A DNA stretch of 32,074 nucleotides, from assembly GCA_000310025.1 (NCBI GenBank), contig FN649748.1, positions 3,572,336 through 3,604,409 on the forward strand, in the 5' to 3' direction. This DNA comes from Ectocarpus siliculosus. Its lineage: Eukaryota; Sar; Phaeophyceae; Ectocarpales; Ectocarpaceae. A model generated the notes under the pieces. It had not been told where the DNA came from. It saw nothing but the letters and a program-made list of their open reading frames with translations, and searched no databases. Numbering within the stretch: position 1 is the first letter of the stretch; each line of letters starts with the position of its first letter. This document shows positions 1,251-27,512 of the stretch, piece after piece. The translations under genes and the position numbers were made by a program.

Positions 1251-4200
1251 TCAAGCGCCGTACTTCTGTACCTGTACCATTTCGGGGCCCCGCAACGAGT
1301 CGGTGGGACGCGCGGTTACCTGCAGGGTCCTGTTGAGGCCCCTCCCGCTTTCACGCTCCTCCTTGATCGTTCCGCGGTTCTCCCGACAAACATCCTCAAC
1401 TGCACTCTTCAGCTTGATTGTGTCAGCTTTGTTGATGTTGTCGTCGTCGTCGTCGTTGCTGTTGTTGATTTGAATCGTTTCAACCTTGTCCGTGTTGCTG
1501 TCGCTCTTGTCGTTGTCGTGGCTGTGGATGCCTGGGTGGACATCGTCAGAGCCGTCGAACGAGCCGTTCAAGTCTTGGTTGAAGGCGGACGACATGCCCT
1601 TCACTCCGACTTCGTAGTCGTCCACAGTCCAGCCCTGCGTTGTGCCGTTACACGGTAGGAAAAAAGGCACGTTTCAATCAATTTTCAAACCATCAAGAAC
1701 CGAATCCAACTCTTTGCTTTGAACAAAGGCATTCAAAAATAGGCCAAGCGTACGGATGTCGTGTCCGTTTCGGTGTGGGTTGAATGCGGAGATTGATCGA
1801 GGCATGAGGGCACATTGTGAGGGAATAGGGGAAAAAAGAGACGTGAGGTGCGCTAGGTCAGTCTTGAAATATTGCAGAAAAGATGAATGTGTGCACTGCG
1901 TTAGTGAAGTCGGAAAGGGGGAAACTTCCCTTGTCGTCTTTGTCGTTCCCCGACGTGCGATTATTTCGGTCTCCGGCTAGTCCACAGTATGGCTAGATGA
2001 AGTGTAAGATAGGGGTGGGTAAGTGCCTGTCAAGGTATCCACAGACAGACAGTATGCAACATAGGCGAAGCGGAGCGGCTAAACCGTAGAGGTGCTCAAA
2101 CAACAGAGACGGGTACAGACGTGCGTACCTGCTTTCCGAGGGCGAGAATGTGCTCCTGGGCGTCGATGCCGGCATGCTTGCGAAAGTTCAAGAGGTAGAG
2201 CTTTGATTCAGGCTTCACCTGAGGAAGGACGACCGAAAGGGCAAGGAACGTGACGCACAGGCAGCAGCAGACACGCGTGGTAATGGAGTAGGATTAGAAC
2301 TTGCCTCGTTGCGCGAAATCGCGCGATGTAGCGACGATCAAACACCGTGTGTCTGACTGCTGTGCCATTCATGTTTAGCTTCTTCTTCCTACTTGTTTCG
2401 GGTGTCACGGCAATTGTTCATATGTACGTGTGCCGCGACGATTAAAGTCGTTGCACCAATTCGGTTTTCGTGGTTGTGACCATTCCGTGTCAATTTGATG
2501 CGGGCGAGGACTGCACACGGGACGTGTACGCAACATCCTGGCAAGGACGCCAGCCATCGGCAATCCCACCGTACCAAGAGTCTATCCGGCGAGGCTTCAG
2601 CGCACAACAACAACGACAAAATCGCACCCACCTCTCCCTGGGCAAGCTCCCGCTGTACCAAGGCCTCGTACTTGACAAAGTGCTGTGATCCCTGCCTGGG
2701 TGCTACGCCTGGCTGGAAACCGACTTCGAACTCTTCTTCTGTCCACCCGCGTTCTGAGAGCATGAACTTGTGCTCCTCCAACGCAATGCCGTGCGTTTCG
2801 CGGTACCTGGCCGCGGTGAAGGCACCAACCAAGAGACGTCAGAGATGTTGATACAAAGAAGAAAAAACGCAGACAGCATGACAACAAAATATATTTGTAT
2901 CATAGATAAAACAGGAACGAAATAAACTCGTATCTACCGTATGTCCAACAGGTGGAACCTCCTGCTGGATAGCCCGGCCACGCCTCTCGTGATTTTCGCC
3001 CAAGAGAACGCCCAAGCACGGCCGTGGGAACGTTCACGCACACTAGTGGGCGAACCACAGCAGTACAGCGGTAGTGTGCGCCGTAGCAACAACATAACGC
3101 CCACCAACAGCGTCAATAGGTTCGTGCGGTCAACGTCGCCGCGTCGCATCTCCCAATCACCTTTGCAGCTTCCTCTTTTCGGTCTGGTTAATCTCTCCGC
3201 CTTCCAGGGTCTCCTCGAGCAGCATCCGGTACTTGGTCTTGTGTCCCCGGGACTGGTTGACTTTGTTCGAAAAGTCCTCGGAGATGGCCTTCTGAAGACC
3301 CGCGCCAATCAAAGGCCGGCGCTTGATGAAGGCGCGCAGGGCGTGCTGGTCCCAGACGTACACCACCACCTGGCGCCCGCGCCCGTGCGAGGGAGCAGCA
3401 GAGGGTGAGGCAGAGGGACGGGATGAGGTGGATCCTACGAAATATATTGTACGACGTGCTTGCACCGGGCAAAACAAGTTAGCCTCGCGTGTGGGGGTAC
3501 CGAAACCGCTGCGGGGGCGGTAGGGTGCCTGACACGCAACACCTCGCAGGTTAGCGACAACTAATTGATACATGAACACGTCGACAAATCAAGACACGAC
3601 GAGACACGCTACGGGTGACCCAATGTTGTTTGTGATGTGTCCGTCGCTTCCACATGTTGTCTGACCTTTCGCGGCCACTCCAAAAGACACTAAATAGCCC
3701 TTAACAAGCCCCAACAAAGAACGCTGTTACCGCCAAAATGGCACGCCGTTTGTAGGGGGGGGTAAGGCTATACTGTACACACTCGATGCTGTGCCCCCTG
3801 TAGAAAAACAACGCCAGGTAGGATGTTTCGAGGTGGTCGTTGTGGCCGTTTCATTCCCATGCAATCCTCGTTTCGCTTCGCTCATGTGGCAGTTACCGCA
3901 TTTTCTTGCAGCACTACCCACATAGACTATGTGTATGTAAACCCCGTAATAGGTTCAAGCGAAGGAAAAACAACAGTCAGAAATTCGCCTACACGTCGTA
4001 CACTGGAGGAGTCACAACTCACATCCGAAGTAGCCGTGACGGTGTTCTTCGTGCATTCCATCTTCCCCAAGTCTTTCGGCCCGTCCACCACATCGGGCAC
4101 GAGCGACAGGGCGACGTTCCCAACCACAGAGTCCCCTCTCAGCATGTTGAAAATCACGTCCTTCACCAAGTCAAGCACCCCTTTCCCTCCGTACTTGTAG

Positions 4201-7200
4201 CCACCGTCCCCGACGACGAGACCCTCGATGAACACGCTGTCTGCCTGATCCTTACCGTCGCTCCTCCCCCCTCCCGCCGGCCACGCATCCGCGGTACCCC
4301 GGGCGGCGGTGTGAGAGGACGCTACCGGAGCCTCCTGTATGAAGGCGTTGAAGGCCATGGAGCCGACGAACCCACCCGGCTCCAGGCGGCACACGTCCTC
4401 ACCCTCCGACCTCACCTGTTGTTGTTATTGTTATTGAACAAGAACATTCACGTTGTTAGCGATTGGTTGAAGCAGCGACCCATTTTATTCCTAGCATTTT
4501 CTTGCGAAAGCGAATGCGACGAGTACGGTTGACACCACCGCCCATCATCACCTGGCTGGTTCAGGTGCCGCACCGACTGACACCTGCATCGTACGAGCAG
4601 CATTCACCATTTCCAATATACGGTTGTCGTGGTTGACTACCGCTGCGATCTACGCTACGCCCCAAGCGTCGGCAAGGCCAACCTCACGGCCCCTTGACCC
4701 ACATCGGCGGTGCCCTCGACGATCAGAAACATCTCCTCGTGCGGTCTGCCTTGCTGGTTGATATCGTTGCCCTCAAGCACAACTCGCCGCTGTGCCTGGC
4801 CCATAAGCTGCATGAACTCCACAGGATTGAGGTCGACCGGCATAAAAATGTCTTGGTAAATTCTTGCCTGCGACGAAACACGACGGGATTCCACGAGCAA
4901 CACCAGCGTTAGAAAGTGAATCGAAAAACGCTGGGGGGGGGGGGCATGGAAAACTACTCTGTGCCAAGTAACCGTTGCACTGCTGCAAAGCTCTGCGTTG
5001 CCACACCTACTGCTGTACCTGTTCAGGGTCCTTTCCAAACTCCTCCGCGTCTTCCTTCTCTTTCCACATTACCCCTATCAGGGCCGCGTTGATCGCCAGG
5101 AAGAATAAGTTCCACTTGATCGAGATCCACAGCGGCGGCGTGCGGTAATAGCTGAAGAAGAGGTTCAGGCTCGATCCGGCGACCACTAGTTCTCTGATCA
5201 GGGAAAAGAGGATGATGCAACGTCCAAGAGAGATACATAGTCTGTGTGAAGTATCAAGAACATTGCGGCCGACCGCAGAGTGTCAGGGGCCGGTTGATGC
5301 AGCAAACTAGGGCGGTGACCTACAGCAGTGCAACGTGAAGACCGGGTGCGCGACGTGTGCCTGAAGCTGATTTCCGAGTCCGGGGAAAAGAGAAAGATCA
5401 GTCAGTGTTTTGGGAAAATAGTGTTTTGGTCCCTCTCTCTGGGAGTCTTGGTTGCTCACGCAGCAGCAGAAGAAAGATGTGGAGCAGAAGAAAGTGGAGA
5501 GGGAACTTGTCAAGATCTGAAACCTATAAATACTGCGGAATGTCGTACATTTCACCGTTGCACCGTTCCGCAGAGCACCGCACGCACGCGGCGGAATCGA
5601 ACGAAGGTAGAAAGAAGACGAAGATGGGAGGAGGGGGGCGTGCTCATGTATCCGCATGCCGTAGTCGTTGGACCATTGACCTCGCGTTCCCCGACAGCGC
5701 CGGCACGCAGCAATAGGCCGGTATTCGCCGGCCCAGGCTACGCTTCACAAGAGGAGGACCCAGGAAGCTGGTGATCATCTTACTGTTTGGTATGCCAAAC
5801 CAGATACGTGTGCCTTGGGTTGGTTTGGCATCCCAGCTAACCAAACGTTTCACATTGAGGAGGAGGCCGAGGCGGATAAATTTGAAGTTGAGTTTTTGAG
5901 TATGCTGCGTGTGTCGCCCCCATGCGACCCATGATTGGACACTTTCTTTTTCCCGTTGGGAGGATGAAAACCTTCTTCGCAAAGAAACTACAACTACAAC
6001 TTGCGCGTGTGAGCAGACAATAACTCAACAACGATCATTGGTAAAACCGACAGCCTCTTGCATGTGTTTTCGGCACATACCGCTGTAGTAGAAGTATGGT
6101 GGAAGTTTGGGCAGTTTTTTGTTTGCTTGTGTCACACAGAAGGTTGTTGTTGAATGCGCAAAGTACTCATATATTGAGGGCTGTTGATTGTGGGGTGATA
6201 TCACGGCACGACGCGCCTTTTCAACCTAAACTCTTCGGCGTAACACATGACGTTACGAGTAGTTTTAAGTATAAATGAGCTGTTCGTTTCCCATGCTGTG
6301 AACAACAACGAACCGCATCCCATCCATCCTCAAAAAAACTCTCTTTTACTTGAGCACACGAGGGCTCACGAGTCGGACACACTACGCGCATGTACTTACG
6401 TACGTATGCATTGCCGCAATGTGCGTACGCCGATCAACCATCGGCACGACTTCGTTACATAGCACACAGCAATAGCATCCTCTGCTGCTGCTGTAGCTAC
6501 ACACACAACAGCGGTGCGCATACATAATACTTGACTCTTTTTAAGCAGCAGCACTGCCGTGCGCAATGTGCGTGGGCTTGAGCAAGCAAGAACCCGGCGT
6601 CGGGACGGACGAATCACGGTCATCCACCGCCTTGGTAACGACTACGGTCAGTAAACCATGTACCTCGCGACCACAAAATTCCTCCCCCGTGGACGTTTGA
6701 TCTTTTCAAACAGCAGACGAAAGAAAAACCACCCACCACGAAAAAATCTCACCGCAAACTCAAGGCATCCGTTTCGAGGTAGCCCAAGGCAAGGATCCCC
6801 AAGCTAGTGTGCCCACACACGGAGCCGATGGTGGTCGCGGTGTCGATGCCGAGGAACTGGAGTGGACGCCGCTCCTTCATCATTTCTTTTCGAAAGCTCT
6901 CCTGAGCCAGCAGTAGTACATCGCCATGTTCCTCGTTTTCCTCTTCTGCCTGTTGTTGGTGACCGACTGCAGATGATGCGAACGGAGCTTCCTTGGGAAG
7001 CAGTAGCCTTCCCCCAGCCAAGCTCGGAGGCTTGAGTGTAGAGAGCTGGCGCCATGCCGAAGGCTTCGCGGCGACGGTAAACGCGCCTCCGGTAGCACCT
7101 GGACTCGACCTCACCAGCCCGTTTCTTCGTCTGAAGACACTGCTGATGATGCTGCCGCTGCTGCCGCCGTTGTTGCGGCCACCGTGCGAAGCAACTGCCC

Positions 7201-7213
7201 TTCCCAAGCTCAT
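1251..7213 (-). CDS. Gene A: Popeye-like membrane protein with CNB-like domain, tandem paralogue 1
   Basis: Eight exons on the minus strand: 6753-7213, 5019-5193, 4703-4867, 4023-4415, 3161-3369, 2632-2806, 2129-2218, 1251-1634. They total 2052 nt (683 aa) and every junction has GT-AG ends. The start at 7213 was chosen because it aligns with paralogue B; an in-frame ATG also lies at 7258. Residues 1-74 contain about 11 Arg/Lys and no Asp/Glu, like a mitochondrial presequence. Residues about 125-200 hold three hydrophobic segments, ending in the WNLFFLAIN motif. Residues 213-430 form a cyclic-nucleotide-binding-like beta-roll (LIVEGTADV, LEPGGFVGSMAF, then VVVYVWDQHALRAF). An acidic insert of about 80 residues lies inside it. 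Residues 445-498 and 514-566 are two copies of one unit, followed by an Asp/Asn-rich tail. Helix-helix-helix-CNB order is the Popeye/POPDC arrangement. Family assignment is firm; targeting and ligand are inference. Confidence 0.85.
5654..5748 (+). repeat. Dispersed repeat, copy 1 (gene A intron 1)
   Basis: It begins GCATGCCGTAGTCGTTGGAC, continues with CATTGACCTCGC, and matches the reverse complement of 9381-9473 over about 95 bp, with scattered mismatches. It lies in the intron between gene A exons 1 and 2, next to a small palindrome GTTTGGTATGCCAAAC at 5785-5800. Its nature (transposon fragment or MITE) is unresolved. Confidence 0.6.
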
Positions 7214-7753
7214 CCCCTGTCTGCTGTGCCGTGGTGGTTGTTCCTGGATTCGAAGCAACAGAGAGAAATCGCCGAATCAGTGGGGTATATTTGTCGCCGG
7301 CTGTGGTGACCTCGTGGTCACTGCGGTACAGCCACCGTTGCGGTAGGCACAGCAACAACCTACAACAGAGAGATAAAGAGCCAGCCCCCGGCTCTGCCCT
7401 GCTGCTGCTGCGACTCAAATCTTATTTTGGTGGGACAGAGTATCTTCGGGCGCAAGGCTGGCGGTAACTATCCAGGCGCAGCACGCAGGGGTGTTGTGTC
7501 CCTACCTGATTGCTATCGCGTATTCTTTCCCGCTTGTTGTCCACAGACCTCCAGGACGAAGACCAACGAACGCGTATAGTAGTCAGGGCTGTGAGCTTGT
7601 CGTAGTTGAAGGGTTGATGGGTGTGACGCCACAACTTGACACATGTTCACAGAATCTTGTCTTCGAGGATCCCAAGAATGCGGCCGAACACGTAACTACC
7701 ACGCCACAAACTCGAACTTTGGTCGCGGTTCACTGGAACATTGGGGTACCGTA

Positions 7754-7982
7754 GGTGACACAATATATCACACCCCCTGGACAGATTTTCAAAGCTCGAT
7801 CGCTCCACACAGCAGAAAGAGTGATGGCGGTGCCGAGAGTTGCGGCGTTGGAAGCGTCTCGTCGATAGCTTTCCGAAAACGTATCTCGTTGGCTTGTGTT
7901 GTACTGTACATCCTCGGCGTCGTGGACTAACATTGAGCTGTCTGTGTGAATTGCCGCAGGGGTTGCGATATCTTATGTCACA
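7754..7982. mobile_element. MITE-like element with imperfect terminal inverted repeats, copy 1
   Basis: The left end GTGACACAATATATCACACC is mirrored at the right end, whose reverse complement begins TGTGACATAAGATATCGCAA. The interior shares AAAGCTCGATCGCTCCAC and a block GCGTTGGAAGCGTCTCGTCG with the element at 14456-14663. No transposase ORF is visible, so it would be non-autonomous. It lies upstream of gene A. Confidence 0.5.
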
Positions 7983-8152
7983 GTACATACATGAGGTACT
8001 ACGGGAGATCTCTGCTGGAAGAACCACAAGAAGTAATGCAAGAGCACGTACAACCTGGGATGGTGTGCTTGCTGACCACACATGGTACGTGGGACGAAAA
8101 TAATAGCGTTCCGTGCACCTATCTTTGAGCGAATGAATCAAGACTTGTATGG

Positions 8153-8172
8153 ATAATAGATAGATAGATAGA
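8153..8172. repeat. (GATA)n microsatellite
   Basis: Short run of GATA/TAGA units in the A-B intergenic region. Confidence 0.8.
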
Positions 8173-9380
8173 TGCATTCACAGCGCCTAGCTTGTCAGTG
8201 TACGGCACTAAAAAAATTCCAAGCGTTTATTATCTATATCCAGCATCGATCTGTTTTCCTCTTGCCTCCGAGCAGCAGTACAGAATTCAACACACAGCAT
8301 GCCAATGTTGTCGACACAGTACAGCCCTTCGAATCGGGCGGAATCTCGAACGTTGAATTTACTGGAAAAGTTTTTATAAGTTGTGTCAAAAATGAATCCA
8401 GTAAGTGATCATCATGTGCTTGTTGTGTAGCTGGTCGCTGGCGGAAGGAATCCAATCCAGTAAGTAAGGAGGTTGATTGGTCGAAAATAAGGAGACGAAA
8501 CACGCCTCAACCACTCACGTTGCCGCGCAAAGTTGCGTTGTGTGATTACTATTATATTTGATCTATCTCGCCAAATGCATGTACTGTACCAGAGACAATC
8601 GCCGTGGTGTGGTGATTGATGAGCAAAGATAAGATCAACAACACACCTGCTCACAACCAACCATTCATTGTCGTCGCGCCGCCTCGATCGAGCAAAGAGC
8701 TACACGTACAGCAGTAGGTATAGTGTGCCGAATGTTGATTTCTTTGAATGACACAAAAACGCCCCACCACCATTGACCATAGTAAGTCTTCATCTTCTTT
8801 GATTTGCACCACGTGCTATACCGACCGAACCGATTAAATATGATGACATTCATTATTATCATGCGGAATCGATTATTATTACTGCGATCATCATGCTGGT
8901 GTGATTTGAGTGTGTTTACCTCGGGTGCGCATGAATGAGCGGTACTACTTACCACCACCCGCTGACAGACGTACGTGTGCAGCGATGCGCAAGATCCACC
9001 ATGAACAAATATATCCTTAGTATTGTTGCCTATCTATCTCTACAGCACGAAAGGGACCACAGATAGTAGTAGATAAACGCCGAAGACAATGAATAAAAAT
9101 ATCAAGCCCACAGACAAAAAGCGTGTAGCGCCCAACAACATAAACGAACGAATCCACTAATCCCCCCCACCCCCCCCCCTCCTCAAAATGGTCAAGCATC
9201 CTCGAGGCAGTTGCACAGTGCTTACAACTGTCTCTGGAAGTGAACGCACCAGAAAATAAATTAAGCCATACGCAGCTGTCATCCGTACGCAAGGAAGTAA
9301 GCACAAGATGCCGAACACCCTTAGCAGGATGCAGCTCACCCTTCATGCGACTCGCCGAAAACCCACGGCGCTTCGCGCTT

Positions 9381-9473
9381 GGTGATGTGAGAGCCTGGTC
9401 CGGTGAGAACCCGGCGTGCTCCGTCCCGGCTTGGTAGGGATGCGAGGTCAATGGTCAAACGACTACGGCATGC
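9381..9473 (-). repeat. Dispersed repeat, copy 2 (A-B intergenic)
   Basis: Reverse complement of the 5654-5748 repeat. The best match is GCATGCCGTAGTCGTTTGAC at the end near 9473, and it fades toward the GTGATGTGAG end. A C homopolymer of about 14 bases follows at 9489-9502. Confidence 0.6.
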
Positions 9474-10001
9474 ACGACTATGAGTACACCCCCCCCCCCC
9501 CCCTCCTCCGCCAGCCAGTGACCAATCCAATACCCTTAACCACACACACTAGGACTAACATCTGAAAATCAGTTGGTTGGCTGTTCTCACTTCGATACCA
9601 AGAGCAGTGATGATGTGCCAGCCTCACAGGAAAAGAAGTAATTCGCTGCCGCCTCACCACCCAGCAAATAATTATAATAGTAGTGCACCCTTTACTTCAC
9701 TCGCCGCACATAGCACTGCACGCATGTATCGTACGAACAAGACCACATGACATATTGACAGCCAGCCGGTACAAAACAAGAACGAATGAACGAAGAACGC
9801 ACACAATCGTGATGCAATTAACAATCAGTCTTGTGATACACGTCTGTCTACCGGCGGCATCAATCACCACCGTCATTTCTCCTCTCCCCTCTCCCCTTTC
9901 CCCCCTGAGTTCCCTCGTCCCTGCTCCTATCGCAGCCCCGAAGGAGTGATTGGGGCACCGCTGTATGCTATCCTATCCTAACCCCTACCACCATCATCAC
10001 C

Positions 10002-10095
10002 ATGAAGCCGTTCGTAGCTCCGGCAGTTGCTCGCGCACTAACATATACTGCGGCTGCACGCAGCAGAATCTCAAGCTGGACAGCTCCTGCTACAG
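10002..10095 (+). other. Possible isolated 5' coding exon (weak)
   Basis: ATG in good context (caccATGAAG) opens 31 codons starting MKPFVAPAVARALTYTAAAR, basic and without acidic residues, like a targeting peptide. They end at a good donor, ACAG|GTAGGTAAG. A C/T-rich tract lies upstream. I found no convincing next exon on the plus strand, so this may be chance. Confidence 0.15.
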
Positions 10096-10267
10096 GTAGG
10101 TAAGTAGTAGTAAAGAATTCTAGCTGCCTCGAAGAAGACCCACGCACCAAAAATAAAACGTTCCGATATGGAACTCAAATTCAAGGTAAAATCAACTCGG
10201 CGCCCGTCGTGAGATACGGCCGTCGAGACACCATCCATCACCTCCATCAACCTGCCGCTAGAAAACA

Positions 10268-10318
10268 CAGCAACAACGACAACAGCAACAGCAACAGCAA
10301 CAACAACAACAACAACAC
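10268..10318. repeat. (CAA/CAG)n microsatellite
   Basis: Imperfect CAA/CAG/CAACGA triplet run in the A-B intergenic region. It produces long spurious Leu/Val or Asn/Gln runs in translated frames. Confidence 0.8.
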
Positions 10319-11507
10319 TTTCACGCGGTGCGCGACATACACGGGGCTTCCCTGAGGCGACCCCTGCTCTTGTTGGAGAGGGGGCGTGCACGGCCTTCCC
10401 CCCCCCGTACATGTGGAAGGCTCCTCAAGCACGAACACCACAGCAACAATAGAAAACATCCTAGAACGCATCCCATACTCTTCGCACCAACCCTTGCTGT
10501 CTGTCCGTTCTCATGTCCAGAAGAAAACACCCACCGAAAAAACATTCGGGGCGATTCTACCCGAACCGAAAAGGTGTGTGGAGCGTGGAGCCACTGTAGC
10601 CGGGCTTAGCGCACTCGTTAGGAGATAGGGACCATTCGAGTGCGCCAAATAAAACACGATATCTAGACTACAGTACAGTAGGAGATAGGCAGGCACGTGT
10701 TGCGAACAACGAAGGCTCGCCAACACGAACACGTTTTATTGCCTGTCTGTCCACACAATGTTTTGACGGTCCTGCCCACCCCTCGCCACCGAATAGACGA
10801 TCTTCACGAGTAAAATAACCGGTCGAATAACAAGAAAAGCAGGATGGCATGCAACTTGTACCAGGTGCACCCATGTGCGAAAATTTCACAGCCACCGTCA
10901 CAAGGAAATAGTCCTAAAAGATCGACGAAACCTCCAGCCCAACATCTCAAACGTCTCGGCCAGCTTGCCAGACCAATAACAGCACCGCCACTCCCCTCCC
11001 CTCCCTCTATCCCCCACAACCACCAGACGCGCCTAGATAGCAACCACGGAAACATGAACGTCTGCCTGAGGCCGAAACGGCACAGCTTGTCAATTTGCCA
11101 CGAACGCGTGAAGCACAAATGCAGCCCTTCCCCTCTCATAACCCCCCCACCCCCACCCCCGCCGCCATTGGCGGCCTGGTATCCTGGTACCATCGGAGAG
11201 TGCAAAAACCCAATGTCCTCACAACACCTCCGACCCCGCCCACCCCCACTATTTGCGAACTTCTGCTGCTCCGGCAGAGCAGGGGCGGCCGTAAAAATCG
11301 ATGGGTGATCACATTTCCTCCTCCTTTTCCCACCAACTATTGGACTAAAGGTGTTATGATACAGTCATCAATAACTCCCCCCAGTGGCTTCCACTAGCGG
11401 GAAAAAAACTAAATAAGTAAACATTTTCGCATACCGAAAAGCGAGCTGAAACACTTTGACACATGGTGCCGCCTTGGACGTAATGTCGCGGATATCCTAC
11501 GGAGCCC

Positions 11508-14500
11508 CTACGCGTCCTGATCCATTGATTCTACCATCTCCCTCTTCTCCTTGTCCGCTGTCCCCCCTGCCCCTTCACGTTCCTCCGACTCCTCAACAAC
11601 CGTCTTGTTCGTATCCGTCTTCTCTAGGCCGGTGGCGGTCTGTACAATGACAGCGGTGGCAGCGTCTACCACCCTCTTGTCCGTGGAGTCATCCTGGCCA
11701 TCATCAGGAACACGAACAGGATGCGTGTTGTCGGGTTGCTCCGCCACGCTTCTTCCGGCAAGGCAGGCCGCCGCCTTGCCCTTAGCTCCAACCTCGTAGT
11801 CGTCCGCGGTCCAGCCCTGACGGTCATGGCCATGGCGATTATCGTAAAACAGGCAACAGGAGGGGACGTCAGTAAAGCGTGATTCAGCGACAGCAGCAGC
11901 AGCAGCAAACAACGAGGATTGTGGGACGCCGTGATGAGGGTGGGCAAGTCGTGCCTGCGGTCGTGTACCGAGGCTGGAAGCCATGTTCGCAGACGCAACG
12001 ACACCATGATGATGATGATGATGATGATGATGATGGTGCCGTAAGGAACGAGAGTGTACTGTACTGCAGCGGGAAGCATCTTCGTCTGTAGCCCTGACGG
12101 TAGATAGCGAATCACGCTGAACCACCGTTACGTCGGCATCGTAGTTCCCCCCCATATGGTGTTGGCGTCCACCACGAACGTGCCCTCTTGCCTCACGGGT
12201 ATGGCTCAAGCAGAGAGCGAAGAGACTACCCTAGCGGAAAACACTTGAGACAAGCATGCAACAGCAGTACAATAGCCGACGCCACCAAGGGAAGCTGCTT
12301 GATATTGGGCTTAAGTTGTGCTTTTTGTCGGAATATTTTGTTTTTGCCCCGTCGTACATACCTGTTTTTCGAGTGCGATGAGGTGTTCCTGGGCATCGAT
12401 CCCCGCCCGGGTCCTAAACTCCCTCAGACTCTGCCGTCCGTCATCCTCCACCTAAACAATCCCGCCGAGGATACACAGGAGCAGAGGAGCAGGAGTTGGC
12501 GCAAGAAGCAAGGAAGGGCCAGGGGGGGGATCTGCATACGTGGATTAGTGCACAAAATGGGGTGGGCGCCAAGAGGTCCCAATCGGGCAACAGTCCGACT
12601 GGCGGTTGCCTGCCCAAGGACCGAAGAGAACGTTGAAATTGTCCACGTATGTAAACTAACGCTAGAAACACAAGAGCGCATATTGTATGTATCAACCTTT
12701 TGCACACGTATAGGCATTCTCCTCAACCAGGCAATGGTTAATCGGTCAAAGAAGGGCCGAGCATTGTAGTGCGTTCGAGGCATCACCACAGAGTAAAACG
12801 GAATGTTAAGGTGCAAACAAAGCGACGAAATTGCCCAGTTTTGATCCAACGGATGGGTGGCACACATCTTCCTGCGGCTCAACTTCCCCACCAAAAGAGG
12901 CCCGCCATGTCCTCGTCTACCGAAGATAGACCACGACCGCAACCTCGGGAGGAACACTCGCCTGTCGGACTCCAAACAAACAACAAAAAATACTATGTGA
13001 ACCACTCTCCCGCCTGGATGTCCCCGACTGATACATTCGAAAATCATGCAGTACAGTAATGAACGCCGAATAGTGAGTTCTCTGGTGCCAGACTAGATAG
13101 GATACACACAACACACACGAGTGCATCGTCAGGGTAAGGGTTTATCCCTCCCGCACCTTTCCCTTCGCTAGCTCTCTCCGCAGCAAGGCCTCGTAATTGA
13201 GGAAGTGTTTCGACCCGTCCCTCGGTGTAACGCCTTTTTGGAAACCCGCTTCGAACTCTTCCTTTGTCCACTCGTGCTCCTTCAGAAGCTCCCGGTGCTC
13301 CTCCGACGAAATTCCGTGCATGTCGCGGTACCTGAGGGGAAAAGAGAGAGAGAGAAAAAAAAAACGATTATTGTGCAGACCTCGAATTCGAACCATCAAG
13401 AAACGTTGCGAAAGAAATCGTCAGCACGGAGGAAGCCCCCGCATCCTGGTGAAAAAAATTACCGTAACTTTTCTCTGTGTTTTTTGCTCCCAAGACCAAC
13501 TCCGCCATGTCATCGCCCAGACGATCGCAAACTTCTCGCACTTGATGATTTACGAGTACATGTGTTGTTTTGTTTTGCTGACGAGTGTGTGTTTCCCATG
13601 CCACCTACAAGTACCGTAACACAAAAATAACCTCTTTCTTCTGCCCAGGTATGCCATGACACCCGATGACAATGAAGGCGTGGGATCGACAAAATAACCA
13701 CACACGGACGGAGCAGCAACAGCGCAACGCGTCTCTTCCGACAACATCAGCAACCCCGAAACTACGCCCCATCTTTCTCCGTATTGTCGGACCCCATCCA
13801 TCAATTTCTACCAACCCTTCACACACCTACCTGCTAAGCTTGCTCTTCTCGATCGGTCTTGTCACGACACCGAAGTAACCCAGAACTACAAAACACCCAG
13901 ATCGTCGGGTCCCACCCCTCCCCTCTCAGTACCCAACATCATAGGGTCCCAACCATCCAACCATCCATCCATCCACCCATCCGTCATTTCACCCTTTGAC
14001 ACACCTGGTCAGCTTCTTCTTCTCGATCGGGGTAATCACCCCCCCGTCGAGGGCCTCCGCCAGCAGCAGCCGGTACCGCTCCTCGGGTCCCCGCGACTGG
14101 TCCACCTTCCTCGTAAGGTCCGCCGATATCGCATTCTGCAGGGCCGCCCCCGCGAGGGGCCTGCGCTTGATGAACGCCCGCAGGAGGTGCATGTCCCAGA
14201 CGTACGCCACCACCTGATGATGCACCCGTCATCGTTGTAGTCGTCACGATCAGGCAGGAAGAGGCAACAGATGTCGGACCGGTTTGAAGCACGGCAGCAA
14301 GAGAACCAGGCAGCGGCAGCGCGGAATAAATAAATAGCGTACTTTGTTAGGACCCGAAATCAACGAATATTCTGGAAATAAAGCAAGGGCTCAAACTTTC
14401 ACAATAAAACCAGAAAACAGGGTGGCACGCACATCTCTCAGCAATGCACGCTTAGGATACCACACACCCCGGCTGGACCGATTCTGAAAGCTCGACTGCT

Positions 14501-17500
14501 CCACGACGAAGAGGAGAACGAAAAATCAAATAATTATACGTTTTCGGAATGCTCTCCACGAGACGATTCCAACGCCCCCCGCCATTGTTCGCCCCCGCCA
14601 CTGTTGTTCTTCTCCCTGCAGGATATTCCAACTTTGAAAATCGGCCGAGGGGATGTGGTATCTCACGTATGCAATCTACACGGAAGTTGAGCGCGCGCGA
14701 CTCACATCGGTCGTGGCGGTCACCGTTGTTGCCGACCGTTCCATCTGTCCGCCTCCGTGACGCCTGTCGCCTTCGGCATCGGCGACAAAGGACTGCGCCA
14801 TGCTACCCACTATGGAGTCTCTCCGCAGGACGTTCAGAGCCACCTCCTTAGCCTCCTTGAACACGCCTCCTCCGCCAGGGACGTTGTCGCTGCTGTCGGC
14901 CACGATGTAACCGTCTTCGTCATCGTCGGTGTAATAGACACCCGGCTCGTATTCGTCGTCAATCGAAGCGTCTTCTTGTTCCTCTGCATCGCCGCCACTG
15001 CTACTGCTACTGGTACTGGTACTGCTGATGTCGGTGGGGACCGTGGGAGAGGTGGTCGTTGGCGAGGCGGAGGCCTGCATGAAGCGGTTGAAGGCCATCG
15101 ACCCCACGAACTGCTTCTGTTCCAAGTGCCCCACCGCCGCGCTCTCTGCCTCTACCTGTGTTTCGAAAGTGTCGTTTCGAAAGTGTCGTTTCGAAATTGA
15201 CGTTTCGAATGTATTGACGTTTCGAATGTAACGCCAATGACACGTAACGGTACCTACACCGGCACCCGAAACAACAAACAAGAAAAATCGCACAAGAGAC
15301 AGCAAAAAAAAGTGTATGTGTTTTGAACTAAACTAGTGAGAGTAGAAATCTCTGCCACATGCTGTTGCAATGAAACCCACTGACTACAGCGGGAAGACAA
15401 TATCGACGGTCCCATGGCTCTGTGCAGCATACCAGACCTTGCGCTTGCCGGGCATATGGAGGAGGTAGGTCATGGCGGAATCAATTCAGAGGTAGGTCCG
15501 TTTCCGAGCTGGACACTAGAAGGTATCTCGTGAGCGTAGAGCAAATCAGTCTCAGTTTCTGTCACAACCTATTTTACTATTGAGCTGACTTGACCCAACC
15601 GAGGAAGGAACGCCCTCTGCATCATGCATAAAGGTCAAGGTTATAGTTCTCGGCACGGAACGGAATATCGGGGCCCGAGGTTGACAATAGAAAACATGCT
15701 GTCGACCCCCCTTCGTATACTCCGTATTTTATACTTGTATAGTATATTCTTGCTTCCTCGGAAGTGTGCCATGCATCTGTTTTCGGATTTCACGTGCAAG
15801 TGTTTATCCTTAGCGGAAGAGAACACTGCTGTATGTGTAGTCTCAATGCCAAAATCAAGCAACCCACAGCGAAAGGGGTCGCTGTGAACCGCCAGCGAGG
15901 GCGAAGACTGCTACTCAGTGCTCGGGGTCTCGTGGTCGAGGAGTTACAGCAGCTATGTAGATACTCGATTGGCGCAACCGCAGGAGGGGAGGGTAGAGAG
16001 GGGCTCTTCTGTGTGACCACGGGTTGGAGTAAACGGCACTAGTGCTGTGAGCGCTGATTTGAAGTGAAGACGAAAAAAAAAAAAAAAAAACGAGGAAGTC
16101 TGCTTGGTAGAGAAAAAAGACAGCGTACTCTTCATGGTCTCAGCCTTAGCGACCCTAGGCCGCGAACCTCAAAACGGGAGCACGTCTCACGGTCTCTTTC
16201 CTGCAAGACACTTGAGTGTGACGGCATAAATTCAGTAGACTCAAAACATGCCCAGTATCCAGCCGGTTTCTTCTTCCACTTACTGCAAAGACTTCTACAC
16301 ATGCCCTTTGTGGATATATCTCGAACGGTAGTCTTTTCTTATGTGCATATATATATATATATATCCTAAAAAACAATACACAAGACCCACAAATACAAAA
16401 ATACTTCCATACACACATTGTCCCGCTAAACGGCTGGCGTCTTTTGATTCGTCACCCAGTTGGCGCGGTCGATGCTTTTTCGAGACACCCACACAAACAA
16501 ACACACCCAGATCACGGCCTTTAGAAATATTCTCTGTTTTCAACCGCACTGAGACCGACGTCTTTTCATTGGTCACCCGGCAAGAGCGGTCGATGCCAAC
16601 AACAGTAAAATAAAGACACAAACATGCACGAAAAAAATGACGTATTCTCATTGGTCAGCCGGTTGGCGCAGTTGATGCTAGCTAAGAAAAAAAAAAAAAC
16701 ACACACACACACACACACACATACATACCTCGGCAGCTCCCTCGACGATGAGGAACACTTCCTCCTGTGGCTGGCCCTCCTCGGACAGATGGGTGCCCTT
16801 CGCCACCAGGCGGCGCTCCGCCAAATCCATCAAGCGGACGAAGTCTACCGGGGTCAGCTCCACCGGCGCGAAAACTTCTTGGAAAGTTCTCGCCTGCATA
16901 AACCAGAAATCAGAACGGTTCCAGACGTGGTTTGCACCATGAAAAGGGGTGGGGGTAAGTAGTGCGACCTTCAGGGCTACTGCTGTAGAGACGTTTGGGA
17001 ATACCGAGATGATAGTCTGTGCGGAGAAGCGTCATCGCTGATAGAACAAAAACGATAGTGAAACTGGGGCTGTTCTGTGTCATTCGAGAGGTTGCCCGTT
17101 TATCGGGGTCCCAAGTCAAACCTCGACGACTCGGAGGAGAGGGGAAACGCGGCATCTGTCACCCCCCTGTTGACTCGAAAAAAAAGAAGGGTACACATCC
17201 TTCTCTGCAAAAACAATGACGTCACTGCCGGGCGAGTACCACGGCAAAGAAGATGAGACGAAGATTGACAGAAGACAACACGTCAGGGGGATATCTCATG
17301 TGTTTCCACATAGGTAAAACGCTGGAGTTACCGTGCCATTCCATTCCGGGTGATAGGCATTGCTTGTATCCAACGTACAGAACGACTAGGTCATTTCTTG
17401 ATCTGTGCCCGCCGAAAGCACCGGCAAAGCGCTGGAGTTACCGTGCCATTCCATCCCGGGTGACAAGCACTGCTTATATCCAAAGTACAGAACGGCTAGG

Positions 17501-20249
17501 TTATTTCCTCTGTGCCCGCCGAGAGCACCGGCACAACTATAATAGGCTTGACAACGGCACTGTTTAAACGGCGCTACTGGACCACTACACAAATGACTGT
17601 TTGGTATACCGTGGTATACAACCGGTACGGTAAATGGTCCCAACGAGTTTATGCCGTCGTGGGTGCGCCGGTGCTGTAACGTCGACCGGTACTCGCCACA
17701 GAACACCCACGGCATTCAGCGGCATTCTACGACAGCCGTCCGGCAAGCGTTAGCGTTCGTTCTCTCAAGCACAGCTACCTAACGCCTAACGCGCCGGGGT
17801 GCGACACGAGGCAACCTCTTTCGGCGTGCGCAGCGACGGGATAAACAACGCCAACCCTGCGCACGCCTGGACACGACTCGACCGGCGTGTAGGGAATATT
17901 TCCTGTCTGTATCTCTTCCAACTTGTAGCCCATGCTAGTTCATGCTATTTCATGCTAGGCGGCGTGGGGATGGAGGTGGACGAACCTGTTCAGGGTCATC
18001 TCCGATATGGGCGGCCTCGCTCTTTTCCTTGAGGAGCAGACCAATCATCGAGACGTTGATCAACAGAAACACCCCCTGTTTGGTGGGAGGCGGGCAGGCC
18101 AAAAATGGTCGGCGGCGCACGGGGTGTTGTGTTATTTCCTTGCAACACTACACTGCAAGATATCTCCACCACAAGTAGAGCATTCATAATACACACCTTC
18201 GACCGACGAGTGAACGGGACGGCTGAATCAATGAATTGACTCTTCTCGCGGGGGTAGAAACCAAGGCAAGTACCGCTAAGGCGAGATAAAACTCCTATGA
18301 TTTGCGCGACCTTCTCCCTGTCTGCTCTGTGAGCCTGACGTAACCCCGGCTGATACGTCAAACGTATGCATACACGCCGAGACGTACGTGTGCTAGACTG
18401 GCGCCAGGGACGAACACACACACACGACGTAGTCACCGCTAACTCTTTAGCCTATAACAGAGTGGGATGCTATCGGTTTCTTGGTACTGCGGCACTACAA
18501 GTTGTGGGGGGCTTCTTCCTTCTCCTCCTCCTCCTGCCGCTCTCACATTCCATCCAATCGGGATCCAAAGCGGCTGCGCCCGGTAGAACTGGAAGAGGAT
18601 GGAAAGCCCTATGCCACTCGCTGCGGATGCACTGGGACAACAAGGCGGTACAGCAGTTGTGATGCCGGGATAACGTGGATAGTTTCGGGAGGTGAGGGGG
18701 CGAGCGGGGTACTGCTGTGTGTATGTCTACCTCGCGGCTACTTCGCCGTACAAAGACGAGATCCAAACCTTCGTTTCTGTTTCACCGTAACCTTGTACGC
18801 GCAATGTGACAATGTGCTTGTTTTGACTTGGCTTGCGTGTACTACGTAAATGAACTGTCAGTCTCGCACGTTTTTCTATCACAAAGGAATCCGCCATCCT
18901 CTAAACATCCAGCAATACAGCGCAGCATGTACATGTATGTATGCATATCACTGCGCGGCCGGCGGCCGGTATTAAGGGGAAATCAAGAATCGAAAACCAA
19001 ACCCGTCACAAGTCCACGTCACACGTGTCACACCATGCTCATTCGTTTTTGTTGCTAACTCAGCGCCGCCCTTGGACTCACGTCTGGAGACAATTTGATC
19101 CCGACTTCTGCACCCCTTTTCTTTACCACGACTCGAGCTCCGTACTCGGTGTACTTCAAGGACTCCTGTATAGATAAGGCAGGCTTGAACCTCTCTCAAC
19201 AACATGTGATCTAAACACACCCAGGAAGACTACCCATTCTTCTTGGTCACTCTAATCCCAGTCGAAACAACTGGCAAGATCAGCAGACCACACCGGGATG
19301 AGAGATGGAACTTGAAGACGAAACCATAGACCTCTGCCTCTCTGTCTCTCTGTCCATCTGTCTTCAGGGAAGTTGTACATTATATGGAGCGCAAGTTCAA
19401 CATTTTCGTTTAGTTTTCGAATACTGGCTCTATACATCTGGATTACATAATGCAACACACGGCTCGGAAGCTTGCTGGTGTCGAAACTCGCTACAATCAA
19501 GTTCATCCCCAAAAAGCACTACAAACTTGAAGTTTAGCAATACGATGAAGAGAAAAGAAGAGTGCTACCACTACTCCCGTCAGAGAGTACTGCTGTAGAG
19601 GTGATGCCCGCTACCACTCGGGTAGGCCGCCCGTAAGCTATCTCACCAAGCAAAATGCGGAGAAACAACCGTTGGCAAAAAACGAAAAAACGAGTCACTA
19701 CTTGAGATCAAAGTACATACGTGTGTGTGGAGAGCTGCGGTTACACCATTTCTACTTGGTAAACCGAGCTTCTCAAGAGATACTGCCACCGACAATACAA
19801 TCTACCAACGTCACAAATGGGGAGGGGTCGTCTCACCGCAGGGCAAGCACATCGGTCTCGAGATACGCTAGCGCCAGGATGACGAAGCTAAGATGACCGC
19901 ACTGATTGCTCGCGGTTGTTGTCGTCTGGCATCCCATGAACTGCAGCGGCCGACGCTCTTTGACCATGGCATCTCGCAGCTGCTTCAACACGCCCCCCTC
20001 ACCTAACCTTGCTGCCCCCTGCTGAACCTCCGGACCCATCGCTATCGCGCTGAATGGCGCCTCCCTGCGCAGCAAACGGCGTCCACCGGTTGGAGGTTTG
20101 GCCATGGAGCTCTCATGGATTGGACTTTTTGCTGGGTGCACGAGGCGGCAATCATGGCCCAACCGTCCTCTCCAACGCAAGGCAGCGCCACTGCTGCTGC
20201 TGCCTTGCAAAGTAGCCCTCCCACGAGCAACCCTCGCCAAGCTGATCAT
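11508..20249 (-). CDS. Gene B: Popeye-like membrane protein with CNB-like domain, tandem paralogue 2
   Basis: Nine exons: 19837-20249, 18547-18631, 17986-18075, 16729-16893, 14706-15155, 14005-14213, 13157-13331, 12362-12451, 11508-11816. They total 1986 nt (661 aa). Exons 2+3 together (175 nt) equal exon 2 of gene A, so B carries one extra phase-0 intron, after the WN codons. An alternative in-frame ATG lies at 20300. The N-terminus is again Arg-rich (about 13 basic against 3 acidic residues in the first 70) and shares the REAPF block with gene A's KEAPF. The membrane segments contain GHLSFVILALAYLETD and PLWIPIGWN. The CNB region shows FLIVEGAAEV and FVGSMAFN, but the PGG of gene A's cassette is QKQ here. 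The exon 5 insert is Ser/Thr- and Asp/Glu-rich and 19 codons longer than in A. Two C-terminal repeat units follow. Introns hold a TIR element, tandem repeats and microsatellites. Same presumed role as A; function unknown. Confidence 0.85.
12006..12035. repeat. (GAT)10 microsatellite in gene B intron
   Basis: About ten GAT units inside the last intron of gene B (11817-12361). The poly-His and poly-Asp runs of the open frames here are intronic artefacts. Confidence 0.85.
14456..14663. mobile_element. MITE-like element with terminal inverted repeats, copy 2, in gene B intron 5
   Basis: The left end starts GATACCACACACCCCGGCTG and continues to a GATTCTGAAAG block. The right end, reverse-complemented, reads GATACCACATCCCCTCGGCC and then GATTTTCAAAG, giving imperfect terminal inverted repeats of roughly 35 bp. 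The interior contains GAGACGATTCCAACGC, the reverse complement of a block in the copy at 7754-7982. It sits in the intron between B exons 5 and 6 and ends about 40 nt from the exon 5 donor. Confidence 0.55.
15158..15231. repeat. TTCGAA tandem array at a gene B splice acceptor
   Basis: Five imperfect units of 14-17 bp, each built on GTTTCGAA (variants GTTTCGAAAGTGTC, GTTTCGAAATTGAC, GTTTCGAATGTATTGAC). The array abuts the acceptor of gene B exon 5 (exon begins at 15155), so it occupies the place of the usual polypyrimidine tract. Confidence 0.8.
16073..16090. repeat. Poly(A) homopolymer in gene B intron
   Basis: About 18 A residues within the intron between B exons 4 and 5. Confidence 0.7.
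16347..16364. repeat. (TA)n microsatellite in gene B intron
   Basis: Alternating AT/TA run of about nine units in the intron between B exons 4 and 5. Confidence 0.8.
16437..16682. repeat. Three copies of a GACGTCTTTTCATTGGTCA intronic unit
   Basis: Copies at about 16437-16476, 16556-16597 and 16639-16680 share the pattern GACGTCTTTTCATTGGTCAC, CCGGTTGGCG, CGGTCGATGC with a few changes each. Copy 2 has an additional 5' part CAACCGCACTGAGACC, which recurs in the fourth copy at 24121. The group ends beside an (AC)n tract and then the donor of gene B exon 4. Confidence 0.75.
16700..16720. repeat. (AC)n tract next to the gene B exon 4 donor
   Basis: About ten AC units followed by ATACATACCT, which on the minus strand is the exon 4 donor AG|GTATGTATG. 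Confidence 0.85.
17313..17535. repeat. 110-bp tandem duplication in gene B intron 3
   Basis: GCTGGAGTTACCGTGCCATT occurs at 17321 and again at 17431. Similarity continues through the whole unit to a GTGCCCGCCG(A)AAGCACCGGC-type end, giving two copies with a period of 110 bp and scattered substitutions. It lies in the intron between B exons 3 and 4. Confidence 0.85.
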
Positions 20250-21782: not shown

Positions 21783-24700
21783 TCAAGCTTTCTGCACCAC
21801 TATGGGCGCGAAACAAGCCCGGACCCACACCCACACCAGCCAGATGCCCGCGAGGGCGATCCCTCTGGACCACAGAACGCTGAACTGCTTCAGTCGTCGG
21901 AATGCGCAAGTGGCGATCTCGCCGTAGTCGATCCAGCTCTCGAGGGTCTTTCCGTCGGCCTTCTGGAGGTAACCGCTGAGCCCGTTCACTATCGCCTCGT
22001 TAGCACCGGGAAACCCGGCTGTGGTGGCCAGGGACATGAGGGTTTCGGGCTGCAGAAGGGGACGAATGAGGATGGGGACCGGGTAGTAGGGGGGTAAGTC
22101 ACTTGGGGAAGGGGGGGGCGGAGGTCACGCAATTGATAAATACTTTTACGTGATAAAGGCTCCCGTTTCGGGAGTTAGCTAGGTGGCTTGCCCACCGGGG
22201 GCGACGCAGGAGGGCATGGCCAATGTTAATGTATGTTAATGTTATCACGGATTGTGTCGTTGGGATAGATAGCAGCCAGCCAATCACGGCCGCCGTGGCT
22301 CGTTCATCTTACGTCACCCGTCATCATCGCATGCCACTTCCCCCTCTCCTCCTCCACCTTGCTGTGGTAGACGACCTCTCCATCCTTTCCTCTCAGCCGA
22401 CGGAGGGCTTCGGAGCAAAGGGTGGACGTCGCGTACCAGAGCAAGATGGAGGAGGACAGGGGGAAGTGGCAGAGGGAGGGCTCGATTTCCGCCGAGAAGA
22501 GGCTTGGCACCTCGCTTGCCGCCGACTTCGATTCGGACGAGACTACGTCATGACCGTTCGCGAGGGGAAGTGTGCAGAACAATGCAGGACTGCAATGCAC
22601 GTGAGCAAGGTGAGGGCGTCACGGGCTGAAAAAAAATCACAGGCTTTAGATATCCTCGAAGGTGTGAGTACTAGGTGGACGGCATGCAGACCACCAAGAT
22701 TGGCGGCACCAGCACCGACCCTTTCCGTACATCGTTGGCATTCGTCAACTCCAAGCATCTGCAACAACGTGGAGCATCGGTCCTGGGTTGCCATGGCCAA
22801 CATAGTACCACGCCTTGTGCTTCAACGCCAACGCCTTCACCAGGCATTGCCGCCTACATACCTTCGCCTGGTTGAGGAACGCGCACACCATCTGCTGTGT
22901 GCCAGGGTTCCGAAGCTGCTTCTTCACCCCCTGTCAGCCAGCAAGAGACAATGGGGGGCGGGCGCGAGATGGGGTTACTGTAACAGGTCACCCTTCTAAG
23001 GCGTATGGCCAATGCGGCATGGCTGCTTCTCTGCACTCAATCCAGCCCAGTCAGCACGCTTCCGGAGATGCAATAACAGCAAGTAGAACAGAGAGTGCCG
23101 TGAGTTGGTCGCCCGGTGACTCAGGCTATGGACATCAGACATGATCAAAATTTGCTCCCCACGAGGGCCACACTCTGCATGCATTCGACTCGCTGCTTAC
23201 ATTGAAGCTCATTACACTCTACTTTTCGGGGGGCTCAGAATCGGGTTATCGGGGGGGGGGCACAATCGGGACGCCTTCGGAGGAATAACTGAGGACGGCG
23301 GCGGCGCAAACAAGAAAAACTGCCTTCGGAGGACATCGTAAAGTCAGCGGCACACTTCCTACCACGCAAACGTGACGGTGGTTGCAAGGGTGTAGCAACA
23401 GAGGATACGATTTAATCGCTGGGAGGCTTCGACTTTTTCGATCTTCGTGCCATATGCAACCAGTCCAGCGAATCTCACGACTCCAGCCGTCGCCACGTCA
23501 TATTTTTTTCCTTGTCAAGGGGCATAACTCGATATACTCTGTACTGCAGTGTGCAGGGCCATGTTGTTTCGAACCCCAGGGTCGAAACGATGCCAGTGTT
23601 CTACGATGCCAGCGAAGGATACGCGGAGATTTTGCTCTTTGAACTGTAGAAAGGTTGTGAAGGGCACTGATTGGTCGAGGCGTGCTTTCGCCCACAGCTC
23701 CACAGCTGAGGGCTCCATGAAATGTAAGCCTGAATCACTTTGCTACTGTGTTGGCCAGCTCGTGGGGGTCACTAAGATAGCTTTACTACCTTTGGGTAGA
23801 ACTGCGCCAGTTATTGGGTGGGGAATCGGATTTCTGCCTTCCAATAAGGCTAATGCATTTTTCCATATGACCATTTATTCACATACACGTACTTCAATGA
23901 AATGAACCACGTTCATTGAGGCTGGCTCAGTATCGGTCCGGGCATCCATCCGACCACGCCTTCGGGCGGCAAAAATAAACAAAAACATACACACACACGC
24001 GCGTGCAGTTTTCTTCTGTTGCTACCGTTTCTGTTTTTGATCCGGAGAATAGCTTAGCCTCCCCCATGCCGCCCCCTCACGGGGTCCCAGTTCATGGCAG
24101 ATAGAAGTGTTTTGTGTTTTCAACCGCACTGAGACTGACGTCTTTTCATTGGACAGCCGGTTAGCGCCGTCGATGCTATTAATAAACACACACACACACA
24201 CACATCCGCCGCTCGTACCTTACTCATCTTCTTGGCCATCTTGAGCATCTGTTTCGGATCCGGCCCATCGGCACCGCCACCTAGACCGCTCTTCGCACCC
24301 CCTCCGCCCATAAGCATGCTCATAAGGCCGCCCATACCCTCTTCCGCCCCTCCGCCGACCCCCCCCGTTCCCGCCCCCATCATGTCCATCAGCCCCGGCA
24401 TTCCCCCCAAAGCGCCTCCCGCCCCTGCTCCGCTGCCTAGATCTGGGAATCCAGGTGCACCTGACCCGCCACCGCCGCCGAACATGTCGAACAGTCCGCC
24501 GCTTCCAGCTGGTGTGCTTCTTGCGGGAGGTGCCATGCTGGCGAGAGCCGTCAGGTGTTTGTCTGCCTTGGATCGGGCAGCTGGAGATTTAGATAGGCAG
24601 GGGGGGGGGGGGGGGACATAGGGGCGGTCGGCTGTGCGGTGCGGTTTGGGGAGAAGCTAGCTAGGCTGACAAGGGGTGGTATGAAACGGGCTGAGCATTG

Positions 24701-26793: not shown

Positions 26794-27512
26794 GGCAACG
26801 CCGCCCCCGAAGGAGCCTGCTGCTGCAGCAGCCTGCTGAGCGTGTTCGAGAGCAGTGGGACGGCGTCAGGGAGGGCAGCCGTGAGAGATGGGCGTGGTGC
26901 TGCAGAGTAGCGACCAGGGTGGAGCTACAATTTGCAGTCAATCGATGTGCTCCACACTTGGCGTTTGATGAAGCACGGTCGGAAAGAGAGCTTGGCGGCG
27001 AATAGGCAAGAAGAGTAGCAGATAGCAATTCCAGCTCTCCAGCACACCTGCGAGAGTGCGAGACCCTGCTGTGGTAGCAGTTGGAGCAGTTGGAGCGGGA
27101 GGTACACGTGTGTCTACTACAGGTTGAGGAGTTTCACTGACTGCTCACCTTTCCGCAGCACAGGCATGCCACCAACGCCGCCGCCGCTACAACCGTACGA
27201 TGCCTATATCTCCGTACCATCGTGTGTGGTTCTGTGTCTCTGTCTCTGCTAGTTGACCAGACTGCTACAGAGACAGCACAGCTTCAGCACCACCGCCGTG
27301 CACCTTGGAGCTCCGTCGATCATTTGGCAGTGACATCGGCCACATGGTACCATGTACTTTCTTGCAGCCCTGCGCGATTTGCGTGCCCCCTTTGTGCACC
27401 TTCCACCTCCATGACCTCCACACAACATTGCCAGCTGACAGCTGGGCACTCACAGCAGCAGTGCGCCCTGAGCAGACGAGGACAGACGAACGGGCCCACC
27501 TCTTGGTAAACC
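26794..27512. promoter_or_regulatory. Divergent intergenic region between TPR gene C and FCP1
   Basis: These 719 bases separate the start codons of two genes transcribed away from each other, so promoters and 5' leaders of both should lie here. I see no clear TATA box. The frame of gene C stays open upstream to about 26865, so part of this region could be coding or a further exon. The FCP1 start sits in a good context (aaaccATGGCC). Confidence 0.4.

Follow-up and report, generated by a model that had tools for sequence, protein, structure and literature searches.

The window, a stretch of 32,074 nucleotides of Ectocarpus siliculosus DNA, contains two tandem genes, A and B, which are both carried by the minus strand, spliced, and in frame between positions 1251 and 20249. 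Their models were rebuilt from conserved exon ends and GT..AG borders. Gene A (7213..1251) is composed of eight exons and encodes 683 amino acids, and gene B (20249..11508) is composed of nine exons and encodes 661 amino acids; the two proteins are 48% identical over 573 aligned columns. The introns are GT..AG and lie at matching places, with one additional intron in gene B, ahead of helix 3.

Exon 1 of gene A (6753..7213, minus strand, as for all exons below) encodes a presequence-like segment (amino acids 1-71; 7001..7213), running from M1 to an R69-L-L step with 10 K/R and no D/E, and the first membrane helix, and it ends in phase 2 at a gtgaga donor. Hydrophobic segments 2 and 3 are encoded by exon 2 (5019..5193), the first half of a Popeye-like/CNB domain by exon 3 (4703..4867), the FVGSMAF motif at the binding-cassette position and a 100-residue insert by exon 4 (4023..4415), and the end of the domain (VVVYVWDQ...) by exon 5 (3161..3369). 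Exon 6 (2632..2806) carries a first C-terminal repeat (YRETHGIALEEHKFMLSERGWTEEEFEVG), exon 7 (2129..2218) the first part of a second repeat, and exon 8 (1251..1634) its end, the tail, and the stop. In gene B, exon 1 (19837..20249) encodes the presequence-like segment (amino acids 1-59; 20073..20249; M1 to a GRRL step, with 11 K/R and 2 D/E) and the first membrane helix, exon 2 (18547..18631) hydrophobic segment 2, and exon 3 (17986..18075), set off by the intron that is extra relative to gene A, hydrophobic segment 3. The first half of the Popeye-like/CNB domain is found in exon 4 (16729..16893), the FVGSMAF cassette position with a 119-residue insert in exon 5 (14706..15155), the end of the domain in exon 6 (14005..14213), the first C-terminal repeat in exon 7 (13157..13331), the first part of the second in exon 8 (12362..12451), and its end, the tail, and the stop in exon 9 (11508..11816).

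The C-terminal repeat follows the pattern YR..HGI..EEH...L.E.GWT.EEFE.G and is present in two copies in both A (1251-2806) and B (11508-13331); the module had no Pfam match and no solved relative in the PDB. Minus-strand frames at 24120-24656 and 26560-26865 also look coding (a Gly-rich one with MLKMAKKMSK, and a TPR/MIT-like one with QARRIKEEATALHRAGQYEEAAEEFARAAQLLEEAG).

At least four further copies are present in the genome, C, D, and E on the same contig and F on another, together with a divergent seventh copy, G (L024), whose start was not found. The modelled paralogues are C to F, all incomplete at the C-terminal end, with D running into a gap; G was left out. In gene C (L020), the C-terminal module is duplicated, three repeat copies being matched, and an apparent GC-AG donor follows the exon ending in QKGE (L020 7946-8108). 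EsV-1-7 repeats are very abundant in this genome (150 scored among 880 candidates), which fits a brown alga.

The Popeye-like domain and its cassette

The preliminary description of A and B as tandem Popeye-like paralogues with a CNB-like domain was borne out by Pfam. The spliced proteins scored 31.4 (A) and 34.6 bits (B) against POPDC1-3 (PF04831), for which the gathering cut-off is 28.1, and 32.2 and 33.6 bits against cNMP_binding, with a cut-off of 27.5. The scan of the paralogues took in pieces of C, E, and F: C (42.6 bits) and E (45.6 bits) passed for POPDC1-3, F (23.7 bits) was under the 28.1 cut-off, and cNMP_binding was also over its cut-off in the C and E pieces. The PF04831 profile run directly on the genome gave no match because the exons were searched apart, whereas the spliced proteins do match, and no NCBIfam model was over a cut-off on A or B. 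The best solved match of A was the CNBD of Mll3241 (E = 0.0017).

Three membrane helices had been predicted in each protein. The POPDC1-3 match begins at helix 1, in agreement with this prediction, but raw KD hydropathy gives three peaks in the helix region of A, D, E, and F and only two that stand out in B and C.

Canonical CNB cassettes contain a ribose-binding Glu and a phosphate-binding Arg. In POPDC, the invariant motifs are given as FL/IDSPEW/F and FQVT/SL/I (PMC6562197), and cAMP binding by the animal proteins is described as depending on Asp, Ser, and Glu of DSPE and on Val of FQVT (PMC6562197, PMC4918794). DSPE is replaced by G-S-M-A in all six algal copies (FVGSMAF or FIGSMAF), and an insert of 69-119 residues interrupts the cassette in each of them, between F-[VI]-G-S-M-A-F and T-[VI]-T-A. 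Only the VT part of FQVT/SL/I remains in this last motif, with I for V in C (five of the six keep V-T). A phosphate-binding Arg at the canonical cassette spacing was not seen in algal, bacterial, or viral rows. Because of the loss of DSPE in six of six copies, the insert, and the missing canonical Arg, canonical cAMP binding by the algal copies is doubtful, and for this reason the proteins are filed as Popeye-like rather than as members of POPDC1-3. Cyclic nucleotides may well be made in this alga, since class III cyclase exons are present in the genome (three matches over the cut-off).

In C, D, and E, an [IV]VGE motif occurs within the insert. A duplication of the cassette inside the insert, marked by a second [IV]VGE-like motif, was considered; the score was reached by 18 of 2,000 shuffles for B, and by 260 for A, 961 for C, 1,128 for D, 932 for E, and 849 for F, and as only B clearly exceeds its shuffles, no such duplication is claimed.

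The basic N-terminal segment

The preliminary count of about 11 basic and no acidic residues in the first 74 of gene A proved exact, with 8 R, 3 K, and not a single D or E. Both N-termini had been called basic and nearly acid-free, which holds for A and more weakly for B, where the first 74 residues hold 13 basic and 4 acidic ones and the first 59 hold 11 and 2. All six paralogues carry an N-terminus of 57-74 residues that is rich in Arg and poor in acidic residues; counted from M1 to two residues past an aligned Arg in each protein, it contains 67 K/R (87% Arg) and 7 D/E in 390 residues. The acidic share is 1.8% (7/390), compared with 6.1% D/E in open non-coding frames, and those of the window contain 13.2% K/R. 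When same-length windows were drawn from these frames, those at least as extreme as the real segment numbered 3/1,317 for A, 107/1,881 for B, 21/1,881 for C, 120/1,366 for D, 27/1,200 for E, and 20/2,014 for F. The bias is unusual singly in A, C, E, and F, and not in B (5.7%) or D (8.8%), and the six tests are not independent because the paralogues are related. In the remainder of the same six proteins, 0 of 2,688 windows were as extreme.

In both A and B, no in-frame ATG lies between the preceding stop and M1 (open frames ending at 7276 and 20330), and the paralogues have in common a start of the form M-I-S-x-A-R or similar. Between D and E, DNA identity rises from 0.30 (9/30) over the 30 nt upstream of the ATG to 0.80 (24/30) over the 30 nt downstream of it; deeper in, it ranges from 0.43 to 0.77, down to 0.43-0.50 in parts of the presequence. 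The single Nei-Gojobori estimates of dN/dS for D/E, which carry no interval, are 0.33 for the 69 codons of the presequence, 0.18 for the remainder of exon 1, and 0.30 for the core. The jump in identity at the ATG and the ratio of 0.33 therefore indicate that the D/E segment is translated and, as judged from these comparisons, constrained, and the same is concluded for A and B by homology. A start downstream of the basic segment, which would have undone the presequence, was rejected on the D/E comparison and on the position of M1 as first in-frame ATG, the answer for A and B coming through the shared start.

In the six-way alignment, an invariant Arg precedes a linker (GGR-LLL in A, GGR-RLL in B, PGR-AIA in C, EGR-TFS in D, GGR-AIT in E, and SSR-QLS in F). 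An R-x-[LIF] pattern, with the hydrophobic residue at +2, is aligned in six of six proteins and in none of 400 alignments of shuffled presequences, although it was defined only after the alignment was seen. At least one all-Arg column was obtained in 81 of these 400 shuffles and at least two in 5, and the real N-termini have three such columns in the realignment and two in the full-length alignment. The residue after the step is S, T, or A in C, D, E, and F and L in A and B, A having in addition an earlier WRQL-STL. MPP cleaves at an R-2 or R-3 step, and the R-x-[LIF] step resembles the R-3 type. Beyond the step come a linker of 51-61 residues and then three hydrophobic segments, assigned by homology. 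The hydrophobic moment of the real segment was reached by 3,004 (A), 4,763 (B), and 3,193 (C) of 5,000 shuffles, and was mildly above shuffles in D, E, and F (543, 247, and 604 of 5,000).

Seven control families were searched in the same genome (PF00231, PF00081, PF02921, PF00118, PF01257, PF00285, and PF04800); two gave a likely N-terminus, two had no match, and for three, exon 1 was not found in the regions inspected. The two candidate controls, both presumed mitochondrial, are an Fe/Mn-SOD N-terminus (MMFSRVACNAARRVPSAGRMISSS.., reading MMFSRVACNAARRVPSAGRMI-SSS) and the first exon of an NDUFS4 candidate (MFTSLLSRLDRQYSALPRAFA..), which look similar to the Popeye-like N-termini, each resting on unproven exon joins; a second SOD (L030) was left out. 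Ectocarpus is reported to possess both MPP subunits and MIP (PMC3097184), and stramenopile glycolytic enzymes, one of them from a kelp, have A-, L-, S-, and R-rich presequences that are described as taking GFP into diatom mitochondria (PMC6198282).

We propose, with a probability of roughly two in three, that A and B are members of a small family of algal Popeye-like proteins whose mitochondrial presequence is cleavable. Alternatively, they could be non-mitochondrial POPDC-type proteins of the plasma membrane, the ER, or endosomes, whose long, basic, disordered N-terminus stays in the cytosol and owes its bias to genome make-up. The composition of the non-coding frames, which match B and D as often as stated above, and the amphipathicity of A to C, no better than that of shuffles, both speak for such a protein, as does the reported arrangement of animal POPDC, with a short, extracellular, glycosylated N-terminus of 27-39 residues and a cytoplasmic Popeye domain (PMC6562197). 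However, a basic N-terminus held inside and followed by three helices would leave a cyclic-nucleotide-type domain outside the cell or in a lumen. Moreover, 7 acidic residues in 390, the conservation of M1 and of the Arg columns, and translation under constraint exceed a drift in composition. We thus regard this alternative as rather unlikely.

Bacterial and viral relatives

When viral contigs were scanned with the A/B alignment as query, 11 loci (L009-L019) were obtained. A first scan of bacterial genomes, with the viral alignment alone as query, gave no loci, and a second one gave 31 (L035-L065). The encoded relatives are about 210 residues long and combine three helices with a CNB domain. 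Against POPDC1-3, the five viral proteins tested scored 50.7-55.6 bits, and six of the seven bacterial ones passed (30.0-55.1 bits), the seventh, from Rhodospirillales, being below 28.1 at 25.6 bits. The viral profile also matched PKG domains (E = 2.7e-23), and the cores of algal A to C are 30-32% identical to the viral core. In the bacterial and viral rows the cassette reads G-E-M-[SA]-F, with no Arg at the usual place. This POPDC build was seen in Bacteriovoracaceae, Planctomycetota, Nitrospinota, Myxococcota, and Bacteroidota/Ignavibacteriota, and on marine viral contigs. Ten neighbouring genes on five viral contigs were checked: a phage setting is supported by a PhoH-like protein (L009) and by a lysin of phage type (L014), and the neighbours from the other three contigs had no matches. 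A viral protein found no match in a phage collection of 50,697 records, and no PHROG was found for the three tested.

The viral forms begin at helix 1 in all nine loci read, seven of which are complete (214-217 aa), and in 25 of 27 bacterial frames at most 49 residues are possible before the matched core; the two others (L058 and L060) are GC-rich frames that stay open much further upstream. From these viral starts and short bacterial frames, it looks as if the long basic extension was added in the algal branch. In a tree of 41 rows, the algal proteins group as a single clade (100/100) whose stem measures 2.09, and no bacterial row is a special neighbour of this clade. An alphaproteobacterial, and thus mitochondrial, origin of the domain found no support in this tree, given the long algal stem, the lack of a special bacterial neighbour, and the sole Rhodospirillales row, a long branch elsewhere. 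Short charged motifs flank the helices: [KR]ERRP precedes helix 1 in A, B, D, and E (KDRRP in C and TERQP in F), and [YR]E[KR]RP directly follows helix 3 in eight of eight viral rows and in 6 of the 14 bacterial rows printed.

Topology, placement, and comparison with known proteins

Mean net charges around the helices were compared between 6 algal, 27 bacterial, and 8 viral rows. They were −0.67, +1.04, and +1.00, respectively, in loop 1, +1.00, −0.41, and −1.00 in loop 2, and −3.67, +0.81, and +1.25 in the flank after helix 3, a reversal that counts as one event in one clade. Among the algal rows, for which alone the stretch before helix 1 was scored, this stretch is +1 to +2 in all six proteins; the algal helix 1 is short and is followed by ETD. 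Membrane topology commonly obeys the positive-inside rule. Because the loop charges are opposite, this rule suggests an N-in/C-out orientation for the algal form and an N-out/C-in orientation, like that of animal POPDC, for the bacterial one. In a mitochondrion, the algal N-terminus would then lie on the matrix side, as import by a presequence requires, and the Popeye-like domain would face the intermembrane space.

On the proposed reading, TOM/TIM23 would import the presequence, MPP would cut it close to the R-x-[LIF] step, and the protein would stay in the inner membrane. With less confidence, the Popeye-like domain would end up in the intermembrane space, since the N-terminus enters the matrix and three helices follow, and the reversed loop charges relative to the bacterial and viral forms fit this placement. 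A domain located there could sense nucleotides of the cytosol that cross the outer membrane. The conserved extension of A, B, and at least four sister copies, which resembles a mitochondrial import signal, suggests that a protein of the cAMP-sensor type was re-routed to the mitochondrion. A fuller scenario is offered tentatively, as possible though short of probable: a Popeye-type sensor may have been moved to the inner membrane and turned over, with its loop charges swapped and its domain facing the intermembrane space, and its cassette may have been rebuilt by the insert for another ligand or partner.

As a sub-case of the mitochondrial reading, the protein could instead keep the POPDC and bacterial topology, with its domain reaching the matrix after conservative sorting. 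Mitochondrial cAMP signalling has been described in animals (PMC5097110), and loop 1 and the post-helix-3 flank of the bacterial and viral proteins are net positive, as would suit a domain in the cytoplasm. The six algal proteins, however, have 0 or −1 in loop 1 and −3 to −5 in the post-helix-3 flank, and a matrix domain seems unlikely. Plastid import in brown algae starts with a signal peptide. Targeting to the plastid or secretory route through such a peptide, to which the long S/A/R-rich, transit-peptide-like extension might point, is very improbable, as no secretory h-region was found in the first 45 residues of the six paralogues (maximum KD 9-mer 0.69-1.52), a result that counts against cleaved-signal-peptide routes, yet not against a signal anchor.

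The cleavable mitochondrial presequence is the preferred reading. The preliminary description of the segment as mitochondrial in type stands as regards a basic, translated, and constrained extension, common to six paralogues, with an R-x-[LIF] step and no h-region, and with no counterpart in the viral relatives; it is weakened by the amphipathicity of A, B, and C, and by the charge of B, which alone is unremarkable. If it is true, the presequence-bearing algal branch would represent a second cellular setting for the Popeye fold, and a clean example of the re-routing of a membrane protein combined with a switch of topology.

In the accounts cited here, POPDC is reported in animals and one protozoan, with none in plants or fungi, and CAP/CRP are named as its nearest bacterial relatives (PMC4918794, PMC6562197, PMC6952887, PMC8706714). 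The bacterial and viral proteins with three helices and a CNB domain suggest that the whole Popeye architecture, beyond the soluble domain, has bacterial relatives. No relevant open-licence literature was found on Popeye proteins in brown algae or a Popeye domain in Ectocarpus. Loss of popdc3 in zebrafish is reported to impair mitochondrial function (PMC12001256), which is not evidence for location.

The algal proteins resemble animal POPDC1-3 in having three predicted helices followed by a Popeye/CNB-type domain, with A and B over the Pfam cut-off, but they differ in the absence of DSPE, the 69-119-residue cassette insert, flank charges pointing to an inverted topology, the C-terminal repeat module, and the 108-132 residues that precede the CGH of helix 1, compared with an N-terminus of 27-39 residues. 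They exceed the Pfam cNMP_binding cut-off, like the domains of CNG channels, PKA, and PKG, but have Ser in place of the ribose-binding Glu and no canonically spaced phosphate-binding Arg. The extension is rich in R, S, and A, as are the stramenopile glycolytic-enzyme presequences (PMC6198282), which were tested as GFP fusions, whereas the algal one is known from sequence and precedes a multi-helix membrane protein. Finally, the bacterial and viral proteins have the same order and spacing of helices and domain as the algal ones, and 11 of the 12 tested pass POPDC1-3 (25.6-55.6 bits for the whole set), but they keep G-E, have no insert, and show opposite loop charges, and the viral forms are without the basic extension.
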